NCBI GenBank assembly: GCA_020975725.1
Contig: QXJR01000020.1
Coordinates: 310,001-374,000 of the forward strand
Direction of reading: 5' to 3'
Length of the DNA: 64,000 nt
From: Picocystis sp. L7
Lineage: Eukaryota > Chlorophyta > Picocystophyceae > Picocystales > Picocystaceae
Positions 9,626 through 63,640 of the stretch are shown here, piece after piece; position 1 is the first letter of the stretch; each line of letters starts with the position of its first letter. A program made the translations under genes and the position numbers. A model generated the notes under the pieces. That model was not told the origin of the DNA, did no database searches, and saw only the letters and a program-made list of their open reading frames with translations.

Positions 9626-10813
9626 ATGCGCGCGTCTCGCAGGCAGAACAACGCACAACACGTGTCCGTCTCATGCGTTGCAGGAGGAGAGGAAGGAATG
9701 GCGAAAGGTGGGAAAGACCTGCTGCCCACGGATTGCTTCCCAGAGGACAAGGTGCGACAGGACGCCAACTCGTTTCGGAGGAAGCTGTGGCTGCTCAGGA
9801 AACGCGGAATCAAAGCCGTGGAGATCAGGAACCTCTTGATGCCTCTCGTGACAATGGTGTGGTTGATACACTATCTGAGAAGTCCGCTGGAGTTCCACGT
9901 GCCGCACGAAGAGATGGTGCCCGTGGATGAGAGCCAAATGTACACGGTGCAAATCATGACCTACAGGAGGCCCACGACGCTCGTCCAAACCATCACCTAT
10001 CTCATGCAAGCACCGTCCATGGAAAAAATAATCGTGATCTGGAACGACGTTGATACGCCCGTCGCCGATACCGATCTACCCAGGCTGCTTCATGCCTGGC
10101 CCAAACCGGTGGAGATTGCTGTGTCGCGCAGGAACGACGTCACCGCAAGATGGAGGTGGAACCAGCGTTGCACCACCGAAGCGGTCTTCAACATCGATGA
10201 CGATGCTTATGTCAACGTAGATGCCATCGAAGCAGCATTCAAGGTCTGGAAGCACTACCCGGATCGATTGGTCGGACTCTACAGCAGGGCCATCTACCTA
10301 AATGAGGAAACCAATTCGTGGGACTATTCCCTGAGGCCAAGAAAGGTGAAGGACGCATCAAGGGTATTTGGGATGGTCATTGGGAAGACTTGGTTTGCGG
10401 GTAAAAGGATCATGAAAGCAGCTTCGGACAATGGGAACCCTCTGTACAAGCAGCTGCAGACGTTCCTGCACGATCCCCACCACGAACGAAAGGGATGCGA
10501 CGACATTGCCTGGAACATGTTCCTTCACGCGGAGGGGTTTCCCCAACCCGTGTCCCTCACCGGTTTGCCGGTGTTTGGCGTAGGGCAACCTGGTGCCACA
10601 GGGTACAATGTCAGTAGCGACAAGGACCTGAAGGGGTGGCTTCAATACCGCAAAAAGTGCGTCGAGGACCTCATGGTGCTCTTCGATGTGGTGGAACCTC
10701 CTCTTAGCACGGGGCTTCTGCACACCGTGCCGGTGGACTTTCCCTTTTTGAAGTACTGGTTGAGGTATCACAAAGAAATGCGACTCGTCAGGCAGCTGTT
10801 GGGTAACATCTAG
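9626..10813 (+). CDS. Type II membrane glycosyltransferase, GT64 (exostosin-like)
   Basis: A 395-residue Golgi-type glycosyltransferase. One hydrophobic anchor (LLMPLVTMVWLIHYL) lies near residue 75, followed by a GT64 domain. That domain opens with YTVQIMTYRRPTTLVQT and continues with KIIVIWNDVDTP. It then shows the metal-binding acidic motif NIDDDAY near residue 188 and PDRLVGLYSR. In animals GT64 domains transfer N-acetylhexosamines in heparan sulfate; in plants single-domain members act in glycan synthesis. The acceptor here is unknown. The ATG at 9626 follows a palindrome cluster; 9698 (MAKGGKD) is an alternative start and sits after a TTGCAG that could be a splice acceptor. The gene converges on the SDR gene with only 15 bp between the two stops. 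Confidence 0.85.
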   Translation: MRASRRQNNAQHVSVSCVAGGEEGMAKGGKDLLPTDCFPEDKVRQDANSFRRKLWLLRKRGIKAVEIRNLLMPLVTMVWLIHYLRSPLEFHVPHEEMVPVDESQMYTVQIMTYRRPTTLVQTITYLMQAPSMEKIIVIWNDVDTPVADTDLPRLLHAWPKPVEIAVSRRNDVTARWRWNQRCTTEAVFNIDDDAYVNVDAIEAAFKVWKHYPDRLVGLYSRAIYLNEETNSWDYSLRPRKVKDASRVFGMVIGKTWFAGKRIMKAASDNGNPLYKQLQTFLHDPHHERKGCDDIAWNMFLHAEGFPQPVSLTGLPVFGVGQPGATGYNVSSDKDLKGWLQYRKKCVEDLMVLFDVVEPPLSTGLLHTVPVDFPFLKYWLRYHKEMRLVRQLLGNI

Positions 10814-55261: not shown

Positions 55262-57289
55262 ATGGGAAAAGGGAGCGACAGCACGCCGTCCTGGACGGAT
55301 CACCAGCATGGCGTGCTCACCAGCCTCAAGAGATCCGGATCACAGACCTTCCAAGGCATCGCAGAAGATCTGTCCTGCCTGCAAGCCATGTGGCTCAAAG
55401 GACCGCAACAGAGGCACGACGACCACAAACAGAGGCTGGATGCGTTCTACGAGAAGCAAGCGCACGCCTACGATCGCTTCCGAGAGCAGTTCCTCTGGGG
55501 GAGAAAACTCCTGCTGGCCGCCTGTGCCAAGAGGCTCGAAAAGCACTGCCACGACATGATCTGGGTGGACGTCGGAGGCGGGACCGGTGAAAACGTACTG
55601 TACATGTCGCAGTACATGGATCTCAGCCGATTCAAAGCCATCTACGTGGTGGACCTGTGCGAACCCTTGTGCAAGGTGGCCAGCAAGAAGGTCATCGAGC
55701 AAGGATGGTCCAACGTCCACGTGGTGCAACACGACGCCTGCCAGTTTGAACTCGAAGAAGGATCGGCCGATCTCATCACCTTCAGCTACTCCCTGTCCAT
55801 GATACCGTCCTTCCACGAAGCGGTGGATCGATCCCTCGCGTACCTGGCCGAAACGGGGCTCTTCGGGATCGCTGATTTCTTCGTGTCCTCCAAGTACGAT
55901 AACCCGTGCAGGCAGATGAACTGGGGATCCAGATGGTTCTGGCGCAGCATCTTCGACATGGACAACATAGACATTGGCCCCGAAAGGAGGCAGTACGTCG
56001 AGACGAGGCTTCGAAGAGTCTACGAGTACAACGGTTTCGGGACCATTCCCTACGTGCCAAAGACCATGAAGGCGCCCTACTTTGTGTGGATTGGAACCAA
56101 GATTGCGGTCAGCAGCGTGGAGCTGGAGGCACCCAAGCCGAAACCGGTCGCATTTCCTCCCACCTTCATCTACTCCGTCTCCTGGGAGGACCCTCAAGCG
56201 GACCGTCCGGTCTTGAACGTTGGGCCGGGCGACGTGGTGCTGACCTTTACGAGCGGTGGCTGCAATTCGATGCACATGATCGCTCAAGGGGCAGAGAGGG
56301 TTTACTCGGTGGACATCAACCCGGCGCAAAGTGCGTTGCTGGAGCTCAAGTGTTTGGCAGTCCAGCACCTCCCCTACCAGGACGTCTGGATGATGTTTGG
56401 GGAGGGCAGGCACGGGAACTTCAAGAATCTCTTCGAGAAAAACCTGGCACCCTTCATGACCCAGTGCGCGTACGACTTCTGGAAAAAACGAATGCACTAC
56501 TTTCAAGACGGGTTTTACTACCATGGATCGATGGGCAAGGTAATATTGACGCTGTACTGGGCGCAGTGCCTCTTTGGCATGCGCCGTTCGGTCTTGCGTC
56601 TTTGCGGTGCCCAGACGCTCGACGAACAGAAGGAGGCCTACAACGCCATACCCCTTGTTTGGCTGCTTAAGCGGTGCCCAAGCTGCCTGCACTTCCTGCT
56701 CCATCTGTTCTTTTCCTGGGCGGTATTTAACCCGGTGATCTGCTGGCTAGGCCTGGGTGTGCCCAAGTCTCAGCTGAGCCTCATCGAGCACGATAAGAGG
56801 ACTACCACCGAGTACGCATGCACGTCTGCGAACGGGGTCATCGAGCACTCGCTCATTTCCAAGAGCAACTACTTTTACTTGTTGTGCCTCCTTGGCCACT
56901 TCACTCGAGACTGCTGTCCTGCATTCCTCAAGGAAGATACCTTCCATCAGCTGAAGGCAGGGGGCCTCGATCGTATTCACATCAAGACATCCAGCTTCCT
57001 GGAGCAGCTATGCAAGCGTAACTACACCAAAGTCATCTTGATGGACCACGTAGATTGGGCGTGGCAGACCAATTATGTAGAGGAGCTTGCCCTGGCCTTG
57101 GAGAAACACGTGCTACCCGGTGGATGCATTATCTTCCGGAGCGCGTCCATCGATCCTCCATATGCCGATGTCTTTCGCGCACACGGGTTCGACGTTCGCT
57201 GTGTCAGCAGGATTACCGATGAAACGCGAGGCGGGTTTATTGATCGCGTGAACATGTACTCGTCTTTTTGGGTAGGGCGCCGCCAGTGA
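55262..57289 (+). CDS. BTA1: Betaine lipid (DGTS) synthase, fused BtaB-BtaA type
   Basis: A 675-residue bifunctional enzyme that makes diacylglyceryl-trimethylhomoserine, a phosphorus-free membrane lipid, at the ER. The N-terminal half is a SAM methyltransferase (BtaB activity): IWVDVGGGTGENVLYMSQYM near 100, then LEEGSADLITFSYSLSMIPS. The C-terminal half is BtaA-like, transferring the 3-amino-3-carboxypropyl group of SAM to diacylglycerol. It shows IYSVSWEDPQADRP near 305, LNVGPGDVVLTFTSGGCNSM, VYSVDINPAQSALLELK and MDHVDWAWQTNYVEELALA. This order, methyltransferase first, is that of Chlamydomonas and fungal BTA1. Both SAM sites look intact. The start at 55262 (MGKGSDSTPSW) is the first ATG close to conserved sequence. 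Confidence 0.93.
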   Translation: MGKGSDSTPSWTDHQHGVLTSLKRSGSQTFQGIAEDLSCLQAMWLKGPQQRHDDHKQRLDAFYEKQAHAYDRFREQFLWGRKLLLAACAKRLEKHCHDMIWVDVGGGTGENVLYMSQYMDLSRFKAIYVVDLCEPLCKVASKKVIEQGWSNVHVVQHDACQFELEEGSADLITFSYSLSMIPSFHEAVDRSLAYLAETGLFGIADFFVSSKYDNPCRQMNWGSRWFWRSIFDMDNIDIGPERRQYVETRLRRVYEYNGFGTIPYVPKTMKAPYFVWIGTKIAVSSVELEAPKPKPVAFPPTFIYSVSWEDPQADRPVLNVGPGDVVLTFTSGGCNSMHMIAQGAERVYSVDINPAQSALLELKCLAVQHLPYQDVWMMFGEGRHGNFKNLFEKNLAPFMTQCAYDFWKKRMHYFQDGFYYHGSMGKVILTLYWAQCLFGMRRSVLRLCGAQTLDEQKEAYNAIPLVWLLKRCPSCLHFLLHLFFSWAVFNPVICWLGLGVPKSQLSLIEHDKRTTTEYACTSANGVIEHSLISKSNYFYLLCLLGHFTRDCCPAFLKEDTFHQLKAGGLDRIHIKTSSFLEQLCKRNYTKVILMDHVDWAWQTNYVEELALALEKHVLPGGCIIFRSASIDPPYADVFRAHGFDVRCVSRITDETRGGFIDRVNMYSSFWVGRRQ

Positions 57290-61888: not shown

Positions 61889-63640
61889 ATGTCGATGGCA
61901 AACTGGAGACGTCTTGGAAAAGATGTCCTCCTCTTCGCCTTGCTGGGATACGCAGTGTACAACCTACTTGACGGAAGAGTCCAGAAGACATTTAGGAGGA
62001 AGACCAACCGTGCGGATGTGCCGATGTACGGTTTCGAACGGAACCAGAGCGTCAATGAATCGGATCTTGCCAGCAAAAGGAGGGCATCGATCGAAATCTG
62101 CACCATGGAGACTCGAAAAAACCCCGCGTCCGACATGGCCAGGATGCTCTTGATGGAATACGCAACGATGCAGAACTACACTCTGACCAACTTTGATGTG
62201 AAAAACGCAGCGCGCCACCGTTCCGACCGTAGAAATCCCAAGTGGTTCAAATACCAGGCGTTGATGGATCGAATCGTGGCCCACAAGCACGCATCCGAGC
62301 TTGGAACAGTGGCTGAGGAGTGGACGTCCAACCACTGGGTCTTCTGGATGGATGGCGATGTTCTCATCACCAATGCAACAGTCAGACTTGAAACATTTGT
62401 CCGCAAATGGGCGGAAGCGAGCACCATGATCCTCGTGTCCAGGGATCCCTACGCCGCATCCACTGGAAGCGTACGGACACCTTTGAACGTGGGCGTTCTG
62501 GGAGTCCGTTCCTCCTCCTGGACGCACAGTTTGTTGGATCGTGTTGTCAAGCATGGACCCACTCTCACCAGGAAAGTCATCGGGAACCGCTGGACTCCTG
62601 GGCTGGTCGATCAACCCTCGTTCACCTACGTCCTTGAAGAAATGGGGGAGCTTTGCGATATTTCTACCAGCAAACCGTCCTTGCATCTTCACGTCACGGT
62701 TTTGCCGCTGCGTCAACTTCAGTCCATTTGCCGCTGGGGCTACAAGGACAAGAAGGATGTTCTATGGAAGCCCGGTGATTTTGCTGCACATGTCACCGGC
62801 ATGAGCAATTCTCCCAATGATCGTGAAAAAGTTATGAAGCTGTTATTAGACTACAGCCATGGCTCATCTACCGGAGGGCTGGAGGCGGAAACGACATGCG
62901 AGTTTGGGTTTCATAAGCCGCCTCCTGCGCAACCCTCCTCCATGAAAGGATTTGTACAATCTGCTTCAAACCTTCTAGCAAGGGTGAATGATAACGCGCA
63001 CACGCCAGCCTGGAAAGAGTTAGAACGCCTTGCAACCAGTCTGTTTCATGAAAACCCAGGACAAATGAGCTATGAGCAGTACATGGAGATTGTCCATGAC
63101 CTGTATCGCAAGCGCCCATGCAACATGCTTGTGTGGGGTGCTGGCAACGACATTTGGCTATGGGCGGCTGCAAATGCTCATGGTAACATAACAGTTCTTG
63201 AAAGTGACAAAGAATGGCTTCAGAAGTTTATTGGGAGGATTGGGCAGCATGTGGTCTTCGTGGCTGTCTCGTTCAAACAACAGCTCTTTGAAAGCCCTCG
63301 CCTCATCAAGCAGCCATCTTCAGAGGCTCTGCTGGTGTCTTTGCCTCAAGAAGTATCAACAAAGCCATGGGATACTATATTAATCGATGGACCTGCAGGA
63401 AATTCCCCCAACTCCCCTGGAAGAATGGAAAGCATCTACACAACTGGGACACTGGTTACTAACTCATCCCCATCTTCGCCAAGAAATGTGACTGTCTTTG
63501 TACACGATGCGTCACGGGAGGTTGAGCAGTCGTGGGCTGATGCAGTCCTTGGCAAGCAGTACACTGAAACATTTGGCAAGAGGAAATTGGACTCTGCCAC
63601 GAGTCTCCGGAAGTATATATTGGCAGCAGCGTCAAAGTGA
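61889..63640 (+). CDS. Fusion of GT34 glycosyltransferase and DUF579 polysaccharide methyltransferase
   Basis: A 583-residue type II membrane protein. A signal anchor lies at residues 10-26 (DVLLFALLGYAVYNLL). The first half is a GT34 domain: ATMQNYTLTNFDVKN, a DxD-type metal site in HWVFWMDGDVLITNATVR near 152, LNVGVLGVRSSSWTHSLLD, and DQPSFTYVLEE. The second half, from about residue 400, is a DUF579 domain of the plant GXM/IRX15 type: CNMLVWGAGNDIWLWAAANA near 412, TVLESDKEWL, then WDTILIDGPAGNSPNSPGRM and VTVFVHDASREVEQSWAD. GT34 enzymes add xylose, galactose or mannose; DUF579 proteins O-methylate glucuronic acid in xylan or act in related wall steps. One polypeptide could thus add and methylate a side chain in the Golgi. 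No stop or splice signal separates the halves. Confidence 0.85.
   Translation: MSMANWRRLGKDVLLFALLGYAVYNLLDGRVQKTFRRKTNRADVPMYGFERNQSVNESDLASKRRASIEICTMETRKNPASDMARMLLMEYATMQNYTLTNFDVKNAARHRSDRRNPKWFKYQALMDRIVAHKHASELGTVAEEWTSNHWVFWMDGDVLITNATVRLETFVRKWAEASTMILVSRDPYAASTGSVRTPLNVGVLGVRSSSWTHSLLDRVVKHGPTLTRKVIGNRWTPGLVDQPSFTYVLEEMGELCDISTSKPSLHLHVTVLPLRQLQSICRWGYKDKKDVLWKPGDFAAHVTGMSNSPNDREKVMKLLLDYSHGSSTGGLEAETTCEFGFHKPPPAQPSSMKGFVQSASNLLARVNDNAHTPAWKELERLATSLFHENPGQMSYEQYMEIVHDLYRKRPCNMLVWGAGNDIWLWAAANAHGNITVLESDKEWLQKFIGRIGQHVVFVAVSFKQQLFESPRLIKQPSSEALLVSLPQEVSTKPWDTILIDGPAGNSPNSPGRMESIYTTGTLVTNSSPSSPRNVTVFVHDASREVEQSWADAVLGKQYTETFGKRKLDSATSLRKYILAAASK

Follow-up and report, generated by a model that had tools for sequence, protein, structure and literature searches.

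The closest worked example of one protein that both extends a glycan and methylates its end is A064R from a chlorovirus. As reported for this protein, its D1 domain (which has a GT-A fold that was likened to glycosyltransferase family 34, or GT34) adds one rhamnose and D2 adds a second, and the D3 methyltransferase was shown to methylate the terminal rhamnose, which is the one added by D2 (PMC9614988). In plants, GXM and AGM are reported to act in the Golgi, where they 4-O-methylate the glucuronic acid (GlcA) of xylan and arabinogalactan, and GXM, IRX15, and AGM1 are described as Golgi proteins (PMC6508755). For their family (DUF579), the earliest ortholog has been listed in Chlorophyta, and GXMT1 orthologs are reported in chlorophytes that make no xylan (PMC5902652). 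For the green and red algae that have been sequenced, GT34 was reported as largely or wholly absent (PMC3797821).

Here, we describe a gene from the green alga Picocystis sp. L7 that joins a GT34 domain to a DUF579 domain. The gene lies in a stretch of 64,000 nucleotides (the window) on contig C18 of a genome of 20.5 Mb in 30 contigs.

One reading frame with two domains

An initial annotation of this DNA had described one uninterrupted frame with GT34 at its N-terminal end and DUF579 at its C-terminal end. The frame is as described: it runs from an ATG at 61889 to a stop ending at 63640, encodes 583 amino acids, and has no stop between the halves. (In a scan of the genome, the open frame was 610 codons long.) The motifs that had been quoted are also present: DGD at residues 155-157, LNVGVLGVRSSSWTHSLLD, and IDGPAG...PGRM. 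The features of the gene are:

61889..63640, + strand: whole open reading frame, with an N-terminal hydrophobic segment, GT34, a linker, and DUF579/GXM (ORF list, Pfam, and genome scan)
61922..61975, + strand: N-terminal hydrophobic segment, about residues 12-29, with basic residues before it (Kyte-Doolittle)
62153..62800, + strand: GT34 glycosyltransferase domain, residues 89-304 (Pfam and leave-one-out profile)
62351..62359, + strand: DGD (D155 and D157), the DxD metal/NDP-sugar motif (sequence and GT34 alignment)
62789..62791, + strand: H301 in GDFAAHVTG, invariant in the GT34 alignment
62876..63019, + strand: linker, about residues 330-377, with no hydrophobic peak and coding by codon usage
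63095..63565, + strand: IRX15/GXM (DUF579) methyltransferase domain, residues 403-559 (Pfam and leave-one-out profile)
63131..63157, + strand: VWGAGNDIW, a glycine-rich motif; both glycines are invariant and the aspartate is nearly invariant in 27 rows
63368..63427, + strand: WDTILIDGPAGNSPNSPGRM, a family signature (27-row DUF579 alignment)
63497..63526, + strand: FVHDASREVE, a second family signature (27-row DUF579 alignment)

Pfam bears out the assignment of the C-terminal half. PF21729 (IRX15/IRX15L/GXM, which is DUF579) matches the whole protein with E = 3.8e-29 and 102 bits, well above the curated cut-off of 27.8 bits, and the half scored by itself reaches 106.3 bits. A profile of the other 26 rows of the DUF579 alignment, with the algal row left out, gives the algal half 136.3 bits, and none of 200 shuffled copies scored higher than 4.7 bits. 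The signatures of the family are kept as well. The GxGxD site, D-G/A-P-x-G, PGRM, and HD..R..E are all present, and these positions are mostly invariant or nearly so across the 27 rows. Within WDTILIDGPAGNSPNSPGRM, W, D, D, P, G, G, and R are invariant and M is nearly invariant; within FVHDASREVE, D177, R180, and E183 (in the numbering of P0002) are invariant. All 14 invariant columns are intact in the algal row, which is among the 27 rows aligned. Based on the class I methyltransferase fold, we take VWGAGNDIW to be a probable SAM-binding motif. The half scores 98.3 bits against NCBIfam TIGR01627 (domain model A_thal_3515), below the cut-off of 149.85; by this score, it is a relative of that narrower model and not a member of it. 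Neither the whole protein nor the DUF579 half had a match in a sequence search of the PDB.

The GT34 assignment of the N-terminal half also holds, with a score moderately above the curated cut-off. PF05637 matches the whole protein with E = 1.4e-6 and 28.7 bits (cut-off 23), the half alone scores 31.7 bits, and in a six-frame scan of the genome this part scored 24.5 bits, which is still above the cut-off. A profile of the other 17 rows of the GT34 alignment gives the algal half 84.1 bits (best of 200 shuffled copies, 3.4 bits), but most of those rows were themselves found through their resemblance to the algal proteins, which makes Pfam the more independent of the two tests. Across the 18 rows, D155 is invariant and D157 is nearly invariant, and the algal row retains W119, D155, D157, and H301. 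The W-x-K before the DxD (W119 and K121) is kept despite just 14-23% identity to the other rows.

The GT34 half is nevertheless divergent. Its branch in the tree has a length of 3.03, and its placement is not settled. In a phmmer search of solved structures with this half alone, XXT5 reached no better than E = 1.2 and ranked behind unrelated chains. A profile of the three algal GT34s matched XXT5 (E = 1e-9), XXT1 (2.4e-5), and XXT2 (1.9e-4), but these matches are driven by all three sequences together. Plant XXTs have a lysine after HFxGC (HFxGCK), and this lysine is not seen in the algal HVTGMSN. The GT34 half may use another donor or none.

The N-terminal segment is moderately hydrophobic: the highest 17-residue Kyte-Doolittle window in the protein has a value of 1.6, at residue 13. 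This segment is likely a type II Golgi signal anchor, from which we infer placement in the Golgi. The protein also has seven N-glycosylation sequons, which would weakly fit a lumenal protein.

We also considered whether the two halves belong to one gene. From 62750 to 63100, there is no stop in this frame, compared to 3 to 9 in each of the other five. No donor-like site (GTRAG, GTAMG, or GTGAG) was found between residues 310 and 385. When codon usage was modeled on eight of the window's genes or parts of genes, it favored the ORF's frame in 16 of the 19 windows (forty codons each) that are inside the ORF, among them all three within residues 301-400. (The exceptions start at residues 181, 241, and 481.) Outside the ORF, in two windows upstream and in the windows past the stop, its frame was not preferred. 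GC3 is lower in the DUF579 half (0.49) than in the GT34 half (0.63), a difference that is not decisive because six other genes in the window range from 0.50 to 0.75. In ten long ORFs elsewhere in the window, the family domains each lie in a single frame; since these ORFs were picked for their length, they show only that single-exon genes occur here. Finally, none of the six most hydrophobic windows of the protein is in the linker (they are N-terminal, apart from one at residue 447, inside the DUF579 domain), so a DUF579 product that started internally would probably have no anchor.

The genome around the fusion

In our scans of the genome for the two families, only the best candidates were scored. 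Among these, GT34 was found at C18:194513 and C24:664089 as well as in the fusion, and DUF579 was found in the fusion and at C3:206431-206877 (L004 and L022). The fusion is the sole full-length copy found in the genome. The match on C3 has five stops in 149 codons and is apparently a relic of a decayed gene. A GT-A-like gene at C18:198304-199197 (L023:8305-9198) lies some 3 kb away from the GT34 gene that stands alone on the same contig (C18:194513-195070); it matches the GT34 profile made in this work with E = 3e-9 and scores 19.1 bits for DUF273 (cut-off 30).

The genome encodes UDP-glucose 6-dehydrogenase, so glucuronic acid is possible. The genome had no match to GT43, in a search that had no positive control, and no match to Cellulose_synt. 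Together, these two results are mild evidence against a xylan or cellulose wall of the plant type. The chlorophyll a/b-binding family has 18 matches in the genome, and one of these, when compared to solved structures, matched chains named as chlorophyll a-b binding protein and LHCI, which places the alga in the green lineage.

The surroundings include a few other genes that we describe for completeness. A GT64 glycosyltransferase ORF of 395 amino acids is at 9626-10813 of the window. Another ORF (55262-57289, 675 amino acids) combines a methyltransferase with DUF3419, a layout shared with the betaine-lipid synthase BTA1. Downstream of the window, on the minus strand, is a Ty3/gypsy-like element (C18:379439-384984; L021:4440-9985). 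By eye, it has a segment like a C5-cytosine methyltransferase between its reverse transcriptase/RNase H and integrase parts; retrotransposons that carry such methyltransferases are known.

DUF579 and GT34 in viruses and prokaryotes

To look beyond this genome, we used viral contigs from IMG/VR, whose viral status is as given by that collection. Searching these contigs with the whole fusion or with the DUF579 half alone gave no match. Viral DUF579 genes were instead found via a DNA pattern for D[AG]PxG-x5-PGRM and via alignments. The pattern gave 18 loci. DUF579 is encoded at 11 of them, which by eye amount to seven distinct sequences, and the remaining seven loci are out of frame or unrelated. 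The alignment searches gave overlapping sets of 48 loci and 62 loci. When grouped by shared 5-mers, the sequences formed 34 clusters, of which 33 are viral and one is bacterial (ORF counts include contigs that were fetched repeatedly). Of 11 viral clusters that were scanned with Pfam, eight, among them L156 with its two domains, had DUF579 scores of 105.0-134.5 bits, as compared to 102 for the algal protein, and three (L103, L157, and L158) scored 71-79 bits.

Most viral DUF579 ORFs encode 100-232 residues (the one in L104 ends at the edge of its locus), and long ORFs of 449-1289 amino acids are present in six of the 33 viral clusters (L076, L103, L114, L156, L157, and L158). Two of the long proteins contain both families of the algal fusion. 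L103 (908 amino acids) has RXYLT1_C (51 bits), GT8 (88.6), DUF579 (79.1), and GT34 (28.5), and L157 (988 amino acids) has GT25 (72.2), GT8 (81.9), DUF579 (71.1), and GT34 (31.1), all above their cut-offs. The two are alike along the GT8-DUF579-GT34 stretch, so they should be counted as one case. Like the algal protein, they have DUF579 and GT34 in one polypeptide, but DUF579 comes before GT34, which is the reverse of the algal order, and they have the additional GT8 and RXYLT1-like or GT25 domains. The initial annotation's author knew of no such fusion and had put it forward as a candidate for an undescribed biochemical unit; the fusion stands, but given L103 and L157, it is not an isolated case. 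At the level of titles and abstracts, we did not find a GT34-DUF579 fusion named in the literature (most subscription papers and all bioRxiv preprints were outside this scope).

Other proteins join DUF579 to a different glycosyltransferase. L105, from a bacterial contig (G091), has GT2 (100.3 bits) and DUF579 (138.8 bits); its contig is short and could be foreign to the bacterial genome. L076 has a GT8-like region (18.3 bits, below the cut-off of 24.3) and DUF579. These two share the algal order, with the glycosyltransferase N-terminal and DUF579 C-terminal, but the glycosyltransferase family differs, and in L076 it is below the cut-off. L156 has glycosyltransferase and Stealth matches below the cut-off only, and Pfam named no partner domain in L114 or L158; by eye, the partner regions of all three look glycosyltransferase-like. 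The ORF in L156 (2666-6532, 1289 amino acids) has two tandem DUF579 domains and several weak glycosyltransferase or Stealth-like matches.

GT34 is also joined to methyltransferases of other families, in five of 12 viral GT34 loci. Three of these have Methyltransf_24 (L025, L055, and L026, which is the same ORF as L025) and two have FkbM (L029 and L034). In the four that were scanned, the methyltransferase was above the cut-off, and these proteins form two groups in the tree. Counting the DUF579 of L103/L157, three methyltransferase families are joined to GT34, as judged by these domain matches. L034 lacks the second D of the DxD, so fusions of GT34 to a methyltransferase need not all be active. 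An unfused GT34 from a Lokiarchaeota record (L053) is very close in the tree to the viral L029; the L053 contig may itself be viral.

As for whether the algal gene came from a virus and whether the fusions share an origin, the algal protein sits on long, unplaced branches in both trees, and the DUF579 tree was without plant sequences. Holding the four fused DUF579 domains together (the alga, L076, L105, and L103, which represents the L103/L157 pair) was not rejected (p-AU 0.266), so the tree does not discriminate between a single origin and more than one. Several origins are favored by the differences in partner family and domain order.

Next, we asked which genes lie beside viral DUF579 genes, using a crude gene call (ORFs of at least 80 amino acids that begin with ATG) in 25 of 26 viral clusters (L104 was omitted). 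Among the 50 immediate neighbors, there were 7 matches to Nucleotid_trans, 5 to GT29, 5 to GT8, and 2 to GT25. Among 145 genes that are four or more away, there were 11 matches to GT2, 4 to GT1, and 4 to GT8, counting the best 25 of 88 families. The test is only suggestive because one protein can match two families. By the same count, RecA and T4 baseplate families matched 2 of the 145 genes each, so some of the contigs with DUF579 are T4-like phages.

In six of 27 viral clusters (L043, L044, L048, L065, L069, and L089), a stand-alone DUF579 gene adjoins an ORF that is GT34-like by the profile made in this work; in these, the DUF579 gene and the GT34-like or other GT-A gene abut or are a few tens of bases apart. 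Pfam scans of the neighbors in L043, L044, and L048 put none of the three above the GT34 cut-off. The L043 neighbor scored 22.5 bits for GT34 (cut-off 23) and 28.6 for Nucleotid_trans (cut-off 22); for the other two, GT34 was not among the Pfam matches listed, and other glycosyltransferase matches were below the cut-off.

A search of 50,697 named phage records with five queries gave no match at E = 1e-5, and nine proteins matched no PHROGs family at E = 0.001. In the phylum of the Caballeronia record, 1 of 398 genomes has DUF579 above the cut-off and one more has it below; the former, which is the source of L105, is also the only genome with DUF579 among 48 of its class. We found no DUF579 in 227 genomes from the phylum of the Lokiarchaeota record, where no positive control responded, or in 14 control genomes. 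DUF579 is rare in the prokaryotes that were sampled.

Proposed function and comparison with known systems

We lean towards the view that the gene encodes a single, Golgi-anchored, bifunctional enzyme, similar to A064R, in which GT34 extends a glycan and GXM caps it. In this proposal, a lumenal GT34 domain would transfer a sugar from a nucleotide-sugar donor to a glycan. The C-terminal GXM-type domain would then O-methylate either that sugar or an adjacent one, with S-adenosylmethionine as the methyl donor. One chain would thus extend and cap a surface or glycoprotein glycan. The observed basis is the single frame, the scores of both domains above curated cut-offs, the intact motifs, and the coding signal in the linker, and the viral genes with GT34 and DUF579 in one chain add to it. 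We count against it the divergent GT34 half (24.5-31.7 bits versus 23), the drop in GC3 between the halves, and the reversed order in L103/L157. The Golgi location, the activity of each domain, the order of the steps, and a common substrate are all part of what we propose and not of what was observed.

What sugar would be methylated? No GT34 enzyme is known to transfer uronic acids. Since plant GXM methylates GlcA, the two steps may not be consecutive, and the model of the initial annotation, in which a side-chain sugar is added and an acidic sugar of a wall or surface polysaccharide is then methylated, would need another enzyme to supply the acid. An acidic sugar is a plausible target of methylation by the algal protein, and so, to the same degree, is a neutral one of the kind that is methylated on algal N-glycans. 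The family name GMA12/MNN10 evokes galactosyl and mannosyl transfer, which makes a neutral sugar as good a guess as GlcA. Green-algal N-glycans are reported to bear methylated mannose, with the methyltransferase given as unknown (PMC6344472).

This question of substrate bears on an unlikely alternative, that each domain is active but that the two work on separate glycans or at separate steps, and that the fusion merely keeps them together in one Golgi cisterna. GT34 is not known to add GlcA, and this alternative would account for the mismatch with GXM and AGM. Their reported substrate is GlcA (PMC6508755). The partners of DUF579 also vary (GT2, GT8, GT25, and GT34), as expected of a portable methyltransferase module. 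On the other hand, GT34 is paired with methyltransferases of three families, which favors consecutive action, as does the worked example of A064R (PMC9614988).

Another alternative, which we consider quite unlikely, is that the GT34 half has lost its transferase activity and serves the methyltransferase as a glycan-binding or Golgi-targeting part. We would expect such decay to reach the DxD, W119, K121, and H301 too, and these are kept at 14-23% identity, even though the score near the cut-off, the long branch, and the missing XXT lysine are what a one-sided enzyme might show. It is very improbable that two separate genes have been taken for one, whether through an intron that preserves the frame, an additional promoter, or a fault in the assembly. 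Our reading of a single gene comes from DNA, GC3 shifts between the halves, and the five stops in the other DUF579 match illustrate that DUF579 sequence can decay in this genome. But the frame is free of stops with coding-like codon use through the linker, the linker has no donor-like site, the DUF579 half is not preceded by a hydrophobic peak, and GT34 and DUF579 share a chain elsewhere (L103 and L157).

We also offer, tentatively and with a little less than even confidence, a broader reading. GXM/DUF579 may be a widespread module for capping glycans, rather than a speciality of plant walls, that travels with glycosyltransferases in viruses, in algae, and rarely in bacteria, and that has been fused to them more than once. 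The algal GT34-GXM protein would then be a self-sufficient enzyme that extends and caps, and a candidate for making the methylated sugars that green-algal glycans carry. The fusions from viruses and a bacterial contig show the DUF579 family outside of plants, and they provide more constructs for asking if DUF579 generally caps the product of its partner glycosyltransferase. The algal gene points the GXM family to a role outside of xylan, in line with the GXMT1 orthologs that were reported from chlorophytes that make no xylan (PMC5902652).

How does the protein compare to the known systems? It belongs to the same Pfam family as plant XXT and fungal GMA12/MNN10 and shares their DxD and the surrounding motifs, but its GT34 is too divergent to assign to either. 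Similarly, it is in the same Pfam family as plant GXM, AGM, and IRX15 and keeps their signatures. In land plants, GXMs act as separate, stand-alone proteins, so a fusion is not required for the chemistry; the algal domain, in contrast, sits behind a GT34 and is below the TIGR01627 cut-off. With A064R of PBCV-1, the likeness is one chain that would add sugar(s) and then O-methylate the end of the glycan, with the methyltransferase at the C terminus; as described, A064R is viral, has two glycosyltransferase domains, and acts on rhamnose (PMC9614988). The algal protein has one glycosyltransferase and a GXM of the plant type and is probably anchored in a membrane, and its likeness to A064R is one of domain architecture.
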